This document shows positions 4,479 to 7,573 of a stretch of 7,826 bases of DNA, piece by piece (position 1 is the first letter of the stretch; each line of letters begins with the position of its first letter). The notes under the pieces are model-generated. The model saw nothing but the letters and a program-made list of their open reading frames with translations. It did no database searches and had not been told where the DNA came from. Both the position numbers and the translations under genes were made by a program. Origin of the DNA: Lachnospiraceae bacterium (GTDB lineage: Bacteria > Bacillota_A > Clostridia > Lachnospirales > Lachnospiraceae); assembly GCA_017540915.1 (NCBI GenBank), contig JAFYAD010000337.1, forward strand, positions 1 to 7,826, in the 5' to 3' direction.

Positions 4479-5832
4479 AAATATACTTGAGGATAAACAA
4501 AACACATAGAACAGACATTATCGGCGTGATCTCCTTAGCCTTACCGCAGATGAGATTTATAATATCATAAGAGATAATACCGATGGAAATACCCTCTGAT
4601 ATGCTGTAAAACAGCGGCATTGAGATAATGCAGAGGTATGCGGGTATTGCCGATGTATAGTTATCGGCGTCACACTTAAGCTCCGTAATGGAACTGAACA
4701 TCAAAAATCCCACGAAGAGAAGTGCCGGTGCCGTAGCGAAAGACGGAATAGCCGTGAATATCGGTGCGAACAGCATCGACAACAGGAACAGCAATCCTGT
4801 CACCACAGCGGTAAGACCTGTCCTGCCGCCTGCGCCGACGCCGGCTGCGGATTCGACGAAAGTCGTTGTGGTAGATGTACCGAGCACAGCGCCTGCTGTT
4901 GTTGCGATAGCATCTGAAAGAAGTGCGGGGCGTATTCCCGGAAGCCTGCCCTCTTTATCCAGCATATCCGCTTTTGAGGCAACTCCGATAAGTGTTCCCA
5001 GTGTATCGAAAAGATCCACAAACAGGAAAGAAAATACCACTATTATAAAGTTCACAATACCGACGGTGCTCATGTCAATGTTGAAACACTGTCCGAAAGT
5101 AAGCCCGATCTTTGAAAAATCGGTCATTGTAAATGTGGGTATCAGAGAATAAAAACCGGCATCCGGATTCGGCACGTAAAGGCCGACAACCTCACAGATT
5201 ATACCGAGTATCCATGTTCCGAAAATACCTACCAGTATGGATCCGGGCACTTTTCTGATATACATGACAGCCATGGCAAACAGACCGATAACCGTCAAAA
5301 GCGCACATATACCTGCTGATGAAAAATTACTGCGGAAATCCACAATGCCGACCAGTGTTGCCGAAGATACCACGATCCCGGCATTCTGAAGTCCTATGAA
5401 TGCAATGAAAAGTCCGATGCCGACTGAAACAGCACGTTTTAATGACAGCGGAATACTGTTGAATATTGCTTCACGGATATTGGTGACCGACAGGATGATA
5501 AAGATCACACCTTCAATAAATACGGCAAAAAGTGCTACCTGCCATGAATAACCGTATCCCAGCACAACCGTGTAAGCAAGATAAGCATTAAGTCCCATAC
5601 CTGCAGAAAGTGCAAAGGGCAGATTTGCCATCACGCCCATGCAGATCGTTCCGACAAAGGAAGCCAGGCAGGTTGCCAGCATTACCGCTGTGCTGTCCAT
5701 ACCTGTAGCCGACAGGATACTGGGGTTCACCGCCAATATGTACGCCATTGTCATGAATGTGGTGACACCTGCAACGATCTCTGTTTTTACATTCGTTTTG
5801 TGTTGTTTCAGCTTAAATAGTTTTTCAAGCAT
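4471..5832 (-). CDS. Purine nucleobase permease, NCS2 superfamily, AzgA/PbuG type
   Basis: This is an inner-membrane, proton-coupled transporter for purine bases (adenine, guanine and/or hypoxanthine). The 453-residue product has the normal family length and many hydrophobic segments. Family landmarks are TTFMTMAYILAVNP (24-37), ALSAGMGLNAY (74-84), FIEGVIFIILS (105-115), DLFDTLGTLIGVA (273-285), the LGTSTTTTFVESAAGVGAGG block (317-336) and ISEGISIGI (411-419). Together these point to the AzgA/PbuG/PbuO group rather than to the uracil or xanthine permeases. GGGAGG lies 8 nt before the ATG, and the start is natural for the family. Adenine deaminase follows directly, which makes adenine a likely substrate, but sequence alone does not separate adenine from guanine and hypoxanthine transport. 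The end of the gene overlaps a small palindrome. Confidence 0.93.
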   Translation of the reverse strand: MLEKLFKLKQHKTNVKTEIVAGVTTFMTMAYILAVNPSILSATGMDSTAVMLATCLASFVGTICMGVMANLPFALSAGMGLNAYLAYTVVLGYGYSWQVALFAVFIEGVIFIILSVTNIREAIFNSIPLSLKRAVSVGIGLFIAFIGLQNAGIVVSSATLVGIVDFRSNFSSAGICALLTVIGLFAMAVMYIRKVPGSILVGIFGTWILGIICEVVGLYVPNPDAGFYSLIPTFTMTDFSKIGLTFGQCFNIDMSTVGIVNFIIVVFSFLFVDLFDTLGTLIGVASKADMLDKEGRLPGIRPALLSDAIATTAGAVLGTSTTTTFVESAAGVGAGGRTGLTAVVTGLLFLLSMLFAPIFTAIPSFATAPALLFVGFLMFSSITELKCDADNYTSAIPAYLCIISMPLFYSISEGISIGIISYDIINLICGKAKEITPIMSVLCVLFILKYIFL

Positions 5833-5874
5833 CGGATTGTCCTCCCTATAGTGTTGTTTATAAGATTTTTATAC

Positions 5875-5889
5875 GCTCCTTTGCGGAGC
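5875..5889 (-). repeat. Small GC-rich hairpin in the purine permease leader
   Basis: GCTCC and GGAGC form a perfect 5-bp stem with a 5-nt loop, 42 nt upstream of the permease start codon. No T-run follows on the minus strand, so it is not a convincing terminator by itself. It could be part of a leader structure with the neighbouring hairpin. Confidence 0.35.
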
Positions 5890-5896
5890 TGCATCT

Positions 5897-5912
5897 AAAA
5901 CCTTCGGGTTTT
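5897..5912 (-). terminator. Weak possible terminator after the symporter gene
   Basis: AAAACC and GGTTTT pair perfectly around a 4-nt loop, 43 bp after the symporter stop. On the minus strand the only U-tract is the stem's own TTTT, making it weak. On the plus strand the same hairpin has a TTCG tetraloop and five Ts, which is a better terminator, but no plus-strand gene leads into it. It may partly separate the symporter and permease transcripts. Confidence 0.3.
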
Positions 5913-5955
5913 TCTCCATCTTCTTCTATTCTGAAAAAGCTTTTGGGTTGCAAAA

Positions 5956-7557
5956 CTACCCTCTGCTCTTATCCCTTAAAATGTTCACATCCAGTATATC
6001 AAGATGAGCTGCCTGAACAGTCATCTCCATAAGCTGCCCTGTGACCTTCGCTGCTGTGGATGGGAAATCCATGATCGTAGCGATCACTCCTGCCAATCCA
6101 AGCCCCTCTAACGGTATCCCGAGCTGTGTGAACAGAATTGTAAGACATACCATGGCTCCGCCGGAAACCTGTGGAGAAGCATAAGATACCAGCAATATGA
6201 TAATGGCAGCCTTTATAAACCAGGCAGTAGATACTCCTACGCCATAGACCTCCGCCAGATAGTACGGCATTATCACAAACAGCGGGATATAATTAGCGTC
6301 ATACAGACTTATCCCCAGCGGATACGCAATATCCGCATATTTGGTGTCCATTCCAAGATTTTCCTTACTTGCTTCCAAACCCTTCGCGTAAGCTGCCATG
6401 GAAGATCCGGTGGTAACTGCTACTATAAACGCGCCTCTTATCTTCTTCATGATCATGGCCGGACTTATACCAAATTTGACACAGACCCATATAACCTGCA
6501 TGATGCACAGTACCGCTTCGGCTAAGATTCCCACAGCCAGAGGTCTCCACAATCCTATAAATGTATCCAGTCCGTTCTCCCAGAAAAGCTTCAGAAGTGA
6601 AGCAAAAATAAATATCGGTATCACTCTGCACACAATATCCATGGCAGATGAAAAAACATTGTAGGAATCTTTCAGAACATCTTTTATATTGTCTGCCTTA
6701 TTGTCGAGCCCCAGTATGATCACACCGAGAAATATGGCTATAAATATAATCTGCATCATATTCCCTTCCGAAAAAGGCAGTATGAGATTACCCGGTATGA
6801 TGTCTAAGAGCATGTCATAAAGTTCTTTGAATCCCCCGCCCGTGGCGGATGCACCACCTGTTCCGTAGGTGAATCCGAAAAAAGGTATCAAGATCAGTGA
6901 AAACACAACGGCTGACGCCATGGATAAACCCACGTATCTGCCTATGGTATATCTGCTCATGCGTCCGAATTCGGAACCGCTTACGCTCTTACAAACGCCG
7001 GTGATGATGCTGAGAAATATCAATATTGGCGCTACGATCATCAGTAATTTCATAAATGTATCCGCTATCGGTATCAGCAGATAGTCTGATATAACGTCCC
7101 TTACTCCTGCCGGTATCACACCCGACAACAGTCCCAGTACCATAGCGAGTACCACAGCGATGCCCAACATCGCCTCCTGCCTGATACCTTCTCCCGGAAA
7201 AGAAAATACTATCTTATTTACACCAAACCGGTAACTGAAAGCGGGGTTTATATCAAGGCTGTCAAATATGAGCTCCGACACCTCATCTCCCACACCTTCT
7301 TCAACCGGATTGAATTTTCTGCTCTTGTATTTTAATACTATATTCGGCTTCCCCAGATTTTTTGAAAAGATAAGCTCTGCTTCCAATCCATCACCGAATT
7401 CATCCATGATCGCAAGGAGCATTTCCTCCATACAAAGGCGAATCCGCAATGCCACTTCCCTGCTCACCTTATTCTCTTTCAGATAATTACCGACTTTTTC
7501 GGAAATATCATCAACTGCCTGCGCATCAATTACACAAGACTTTATTTCCTGCCTCAT
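5956..7557 (-). CDS. Dicarboxylate/amino acid:cation symporter (DAACS/SDF) family protein with N-terminal degenerate GHKL (RsbW-like) domain
   Basis: The 533-residue product is about 100 residues longer than an ordinary GltP/DctA-type symporter. Residues 1 to about 122 are soluble and resemble a GHKL ATPase of the anti-sigma RsbW kind: an N-box-like helix RLCMEEMLLAI (40-50), FNP (82-84), and the closing strand pattern FSYRFGVNKIVFSF (107-120). The expected Asn of the N-box is Ala49, and the Asp and Gly of the DxG box are missing, so ATP binding is doubtful. From about 128 onward the membrane body follows the DAACS layout: TTGSS reentrant-loop segment (382-386), PLGISLYDAN (413-422), ASPQVSGGAM (460-469) and MDFPSTAAKVTGQ (496-508). 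The NMDGT cation motif and several substrate-site residues are replaced. The ATG has AGAGGGAG 8 nt upstream. An HD-GYP-type gene precedes it by 65 bp. The substrate is unknown; transport could be altered or the protein could act as a sensor. Confidence 0.85.
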   Translation of the reverse strand: MRQEIKSCVIDAQAVDDISEKVGNYLKENKVSREVALRIRLCMEEMLLAIMDEFGDGLEAELIFSKNLGKPNIVLKYKSRKFNPVEEGVGDEVSELIFDSLDINPAFSYRFGVNKIVFSFPGEGIRQEAMLGIAVVLAMVLGLLSGVIPAGVRDVISDYLLIPIADTFMKLLMIVAPILIFLSIITGVCKSVSGSEFGRMSRYTIGRYVGLSMASAVVFSLILIPFFGFTYGTGGASATGGGFKELYDMLLDIIPGNLILPFSEGNMMQIIFIAIFLGVIILGLDNKADNIKDVLKDSYNVFSSAMDIVCRVIPIFIFASLLKLFWENGLDTFIGLWRPLAVGILAEAVLCIMQVIWVCVKFGISPAMIMKKIRGAFIVAVTTGSSMAAYAKGLEASKENLGMDTKYADIAYPLGISLYDANYIPLFVIMPYYLAEVYGVGVSTAWFIKAAIIILLVSYASPQVSGGAMVCLTILFTQLGIPLEGLGLAGVIATIMDFPSTAAKVTGQLMEMTVQAAHLDILDVNILRDKSRG

Positions 7558-7573
7558 AAAAAATACTCCCTCT

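Follow-up and report, generated by a model that had tools for sequence, protein, structure and literature searches.

A 533-residue protein encoded on the reverse strand of a Lachnospiraceae contig (5956..7557 of the window, the whole 7,826-nucleotide stretch that was analysed) joins an RsbW-like domain, a likely pseudokinase, to a DAACS/SDF membrane body, and is probably part of a partner-switching system whose output is a transporter, with the pseudokinase as the candidate docking site for a STAS protein. Partner-switching between a kinase, a STAS protein and a phosphatase is the textbook mode of sigma-factor control. The fusion was recognised from its open reading frame, a Pfam SDF match and a full-length AlphaFold2 model (pLDDT 83.5, pTM 0.75; 37 rows), in which an N-terminal alpha/beta domain is followed by a helical body.

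The degenerate RsbW/SpoIIAB-like GHKL domain occupies residues 1-122 (7192..7557, reverse strand), as delimited by model, fold match and alignment, and the membrane body, of glutamate-transporter fold, occupies residues 130-530 (5968..7170, reverse strand) on the basis of Pfam, sequence and structure matches and alignment. A Shine-Dalgarno-like AGAGGGAG read from the sequence (7566..7573, reverse strand) ends 8 nt 5' of the ATG. The Pfam SDF match spans residues 133-510 with an E value of 4.6e-56 (190.9 bits against a curated cut-off of 27.9) and no other Pfam family was matched on the 533-residue protein at E up to 10. Downstream lie genes with Pfam matches to Xan_ur_permease, adenine deaminase and UPRTase, and the upstream neighbour is an HD-domain fragment (a weak match, E 0.039, under the cut-off). 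No STAS, SpoIIE or RsbW gene was found in the window, which stops 269 bp upstream of the fusion gene. A gene at 2-1753 on the reverse strand, which runs past the window edge, joins a GH10 glycosyl hydrolase to a hydrolase domain of BD-FAE type.

The model of residues 5-124, an alpha/beta domain predicted with confidence (pLDDT 87.7, pTM 0.80), has the RsbW/SpoIIAB fold, a GHKL fold of RsbW topology, and its best solved matches were UsfX, RsbW and SpoIIAB, most of them solved with STAS partners. The original prediction had placed an anti-sigma/GHKL module before a DAACS domain, a claim that a model other than a Bergerat fold, or homologues all lacking the module, would have spoken against; the predicted structure is of the RsbW-type GHKL fold and the module is kept in 50 distinct fusions. 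In the HMM comparison of HATPase_c_2 with SDF that it had proposed, SDF was matched as above and the window N-domain alone gave no Pfam match, HATPase_c_2 included; HATPase_c_2 was matched in nine of the 18 fusion-family members scanned (E up to 10, best 2.2e-5). Against an HMM built from RsbW-like kinases the window N-domain scored -0.6 bits, the best of 1300 shuffled sequences reaching 7.8, a level topped by 16/48 SDF fusions and by 7/7 MATE and 8/10 ABC proteins carrying a similar domain. The window domain is tied to RsbW via its family and its fold. NCBIfam gave a chance-level match only for residues 1-122 (E 0.041), and a protein search with residues 1-128 yielded none of 181 candidates at E <= 0.01. 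A PDB sequence search with the family profile ranked an unrelated hypothetical protein (E 0.0054) ahead of RsbW (0.02), so that sequence alone leaves the RsbW identity undecided.

When the domain is aligned with RsbW-like kinases, the position of the N-box Asn is taken by Ala49, that of the G1 Asp by Tyr77 and those of the GxG by Glu92 and Ser94, in agreement with the original prediction that the nucleotide-binding residues, the N-box Asn among them, had been lost. Glu45 and G112-x-N114 are retained, and the alignment columns of the N-box remnant, with Glu45 kept and Ala49 in place of Asn, correspond to 7411..7425 on the reverse strand. Across the family the N-box Asn is present in 2/50 fusions and the G1 Asp and GxG in none of the 50; the N-box Glu is found in 45/50 and GxN in 41/50. 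All three of the Asn, Asp and GxG are present in 11/11 comparison RsbW-like kinases. To judge from these columns the N-domain is likely a pseudokinase.

The closest relative, L001, comes from an uncultured Lachnospiraceae MAG, is 73% identical over residues 1-528 and has the whole architecture; a scan of contigs with the window protein had given 35 matching stretches, which led to this one relative. The total, window counted, rose to the 50 distinct fusions when 200 and 397 genomes from L001's family and 398 from its phylum were searched, with both halves of each ORF verified by local HMMs. Fusion-bearing genomes numbered at least 29/397 in the family and at least 9/398 in the phylum, both lower bounds as the loci were made from best matches only. 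Two pairs, L135/L137 and L138/L141, are near-copies, and the incomplete L076 and L078 were excluded from the trees and from the table of membrane residues. In the SDF tree a single branch (100/99) splits 48 fusions from 18 ordinary SDFs. The same division of 22 fusions, the window's clade, from 26 others appears in the SDF tree (100/100) and, with weak support, in the tree of the short N-domain (84/70), which is in line with joint inheritance of the two halves. A database search with the N-domain of the L041 DAACS fusion found 16 SDF-fusion relatives for which PF00375 is the sole listed Pfam domain, so the signalling half is overlooked by annotation.

The body matches GltTk (Foldseek E 7e-14) and GltPh (E below 1e-11), the TM score by target for GltPh being 0.82-0.84 for inward-facing forms and about 0.5 for others. 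Its best solved sequence match is an ancestral sodium-uncoupled carrier, 9bgz. In a multiple alignment, on which these residue calls and the counts that follow rest, the NMDGT column reads YDANY, which has an Asp one column away, and N310, D312, R397, N401 and D405 (GltPh numbering) are all replaced, the last three by S, K and Q respectively. The table of membrane residues takes in 38 of the 50 fusions; 17/38, including the window, are without the NMDGT Asn, its Asp and D405, another 17/38 retain NMD, and D405 is retained in 19/38. Ordinary SDFs have NMDGT in 16/18 and D405 in 18/18. Excerpts of PMC12668577, the paper on 9bgz, state that the NMD motif of GltPh helps to coordinate Na1, Na2, Na3 and substrate and is a "nexus" for solute binding. 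Loss of this motif makes it unlikely that the window protein works as an ordinary symporter of sodium and aspartate. Lost coupling is no proof of lost transport, since a reconstructed ancestor in the same excerpts binds aspartate without sodium and is termed an uncoupled transporter (PMC12668577). In the window's clade, where the key sodium-site residues N310, D312 and D405 are gone, the body could be a receptor or else a carrier without coupling. At L037 a DAACS fusion (5647-7311, forward strand) is followed 7 bp on by an ordinary SDF gene with the ligand residues (7318-8568, forward strand), a possible regulator/transporter pair.

The genes that lie beside some of the relatives point to a partner. 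Genes for STAS, SpoIIE-phosphatase or RsbW proteins lie within 4 kb (a limit chosen by the analyst) of 11/50 fusion loci and within 200 bp of 9/50, and 20/20 matches are on the same strand as the fusion, in a tally that counts the near-copies L135 and L137 each and uses context HMMs seeded partly with the STAS, SpoIIE and RsbW genes of these same loci (the second SpoIIE of L091 was excluded from the SpoIIE seed). By Pfam STAS matches within 4 kb, six were observed where 0.53 were expected for 39 fusions in 29 genomes (Poisson P 2e-5). STAS genes occur in 28/29 of the genomes and SpoIIE genes in 29/29. Partner genes accompany 8/22 fusions of the window's clade and 3/26 of the other. At the remaining 39/50 loci, the window included, no such gene lies within 4 kb, some flanks being short, so that partners would often need to act in trans. 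An all-against-all comparison of neighbours within 5 kb found no family in more than 7/40 loci, and the largest cluster may consist of GGDEF proteins.

The most complete cluster is found at L041, where the order is fusion, STAS (70 bp away), a MATE with an RsbW-like tail (HATPase_c_2 E 1.7e-8), GNAT, SpoIIE with dCache and HAMP, and an RsbW with intact ATP motifs (HATPase_c_2 E 1e-18). At L093 a SpoIIE-RsbW protein is encoded 4 bp upstream of the fusion and at L091 a STAS gene lies 9 bp upstream; L041, L090 and L093 each have in their cluster an RsbW gene with intact motifs. In each of the five STAS neighbours inspected out of ten (L001, L041, L091, L092, L093), Ser-Ser precedes (Ala/Ser)-Gly, in the loop that we take to be where RsbV-like proteins are phosphorylated. 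As the STAS, SpoIIE and RsbW genes adjoin some relatives on the same strand, partner binding is preferred out of the "sensor or partner-binding" role first suggested for the domain, and the sensor part of that suggestion is less favoured. Similar genes, which we take to resemble GH3-type acyl-amide ligases, share a stretch with STAS genes in L001 (471-2186, forward strand) and L032 (5355-6956, reverse strand). A STAS domain is joined to an APH-type phosphotransferase in L093 (9043-10233, forward strand) and in L121 (310-1893, forward strand), the latter also having an RsbW-like kinase.

RsbW-like C-terminal domains were also found on seven MATE proteins and ten ABC ATPases which, like the sodium-site losses in the body, had not been visible to the original prediction. 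The MATE proteins with a C-terminal HATPase_c_2-like domain are encoded on the reverse strand in L041 (4842-6608), L032 (7010-8734), L120 (1498-3270) and L128 (1498-3285), and on the forward strand in L089 (133-1854), L126 (100-1887) and L033 (4158-5921), the last with Asn at the N-box by alignment. For two of them (L041, L033) a DAACS fusion is no more than 400 bp away. The L032 gene is a biased find, as that locus was sampled via its RsbW gene; L089, L120, L126 and L128 were sampled via their own MATE-tail matches, and the L033 tail was added manually (no match to the fusion profile, Pfam E 0.1, RsbW HMM 21.1 bits). A Pfam scan covered two of the ten ABC ATPases, L117 (1489-2595, reverse strand; HATPase_c_2 E 1.9e-4) and L119 (1492-2577, reverse strand; E 2.2e-4), both matches falling under the cut-off, and the others were called by the fusion profile. 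Of 40 database proteins matched by the L041 MATE tail, 26 are listed as MatE plus HATPase_c_2, so this architecture is already visible to databases.

In the proposed mechanism the N-domain, devoid of ATP motifs and expected to be cytoplasmic, would dock a STAS-domain protein of the RsbV/SpoIIAA type. A true RsbW kinase would add a phosphate to the STAS protein, which a SpoIIE-type phosphatase would remove again. In one of its two states, in the simplest case the one without phosphate, the STAS protein would bind the pseudokinase and there gate, or report on, the membrane body, so that a transporter would take the place of a sigma factor as the output. STAS binding, its dependence on phosphorylation and its effect on the body are what we infer from the fold and the neighbouring genes. 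A wider reading is put forward tentatively: partner-switching may, as a general rule, control membrane transport post-translationally in Lachnospiraceae and their relatives, with RsbW-like pseudokinases on three unrelated types of transporter (DAACS, MATE and ABC ATPase) acting as receivers of phospho-regulated STAS proteins, and with the DAACS body of the window's clade turned into a non-transporting receptor, the whole being a double pseudo-protein.

Other explanations of the fusion have to be weighed against docking of a STAS protein. The fold could have been recruited only as a self-contained domain that regulates or assembles the transporter, through dimerisation or allostery and unlinked to partner-switching, for which the loss of the nucleotide motifs and the 39/50 loci without a partner gene within 4 kb both speak; the same-strand clusters with STAS, SpoIIE and RsbW, and the similar domain on MATE and ABC proteins, with the L041 MATE in the very same cluster, make this rather unlikely. 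The domain might instead have remained a kinase or nucleotide sensor, binding ATP in an unusual way and itself phosphorylating the STAS protein. The N-box Glu of 45/50 fusions and the N-box Asn of two members speak for this, but neither G1 Asp nor GxG survives in any of the 50, the window has none of Asn, Asp and GxG, and L041, L090 and L093 have RsbW genes with intact motifs in their clusters, so that activity of this kind is highly improbable.

RsbW and SpoIIAB proteins are anti-sigma factors, and the fusion could accordingly be a membrane-anchored anti-sigma factor, the RsbW-like domain holding a sigma factor and releasing it when the transporter body binds substrate. At L041 the strand of the fusion carries, some 0.5 kb upstream of it, a sigma-70 family gene with a Sigma70_r2 match, presumably of ECF type, and at L142 too a sigma-like gene is found inside the 4 kb limit; both loci belong to the 11 loci with partner genes, which leaves room for such a role at these two. 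However, single-seed phmmer, which may miss some, placed a sigma-like gene inside 4 kb at only 2/50 loci, close to the one or so expected by chance on rough arithmetic from at least 274 Sigma70_r2 matches in 36 genomes (a mean of at least 7.6), whereas STAS, SpoIIE and RsbW neighbours are commoner (11/50). Sequestration of a sigma factor is thereby weakened and is judged quite improbable.

Several known systems come close to the fusion. With RsbW/SpoIIAB (HATPase_c_2, GHKL) the fusion shares the RsbW-topology GHKL fold, but it is without the N-box Asn, G1 Asp and GxG, is joined to a membrane transporter and has few sigma-like genes nearby. With DAACS/SDF proteins (GltPh, GltTk and DctA, the last itself an SDF protein; PF00375) it shares the Pfam SDF match and the glutamate-transporter fold; it differs in its additional N-domain and in the five replaced residues. 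In the SLC26/SulP proteins, which have a C-terminal STAS domain, partner-switch folds are likewise attached to transporters, but there the STAS half is fused and here the kinase half. The SLC26 protein DauA is bound by DctA at the membrane according to excerpts of PMC5703999, a section heading of which places the contact in the transmembrane domain. In MlaFB a STAS protein, MlaB, binds an ABC ATPase and so acts on a transporter; the excerpts of PMC7367683 mention no RsbW-like domain, whereas the STAS receiver proposed here is a transporter-fused pseudokinase. Excerpts on CapK/CapS and SiaB/SiaC mention no transporter output, and STAS domains are reviewed in PMC8256260. Among the literature matches listed, a set that left preprints and most subscription papers outside its scope and was seen in part, no description of an RsbW-like domain on a transporter was recognised.

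A receiver-like domain thus sits on transporters, and 9/11 of the loci with partner genes are without a sigma-like gene within 4 kb. For part of the STAS, SpoIIE and RsbW complement of these genomes, the proposal names a specific, testable receiver. If it is true, the Lachnospiraceae, a common family of the gut and rumen, would have a fast control of transport, and these bacteria may wire an RsbW-type switch straight to their membrane transporters.
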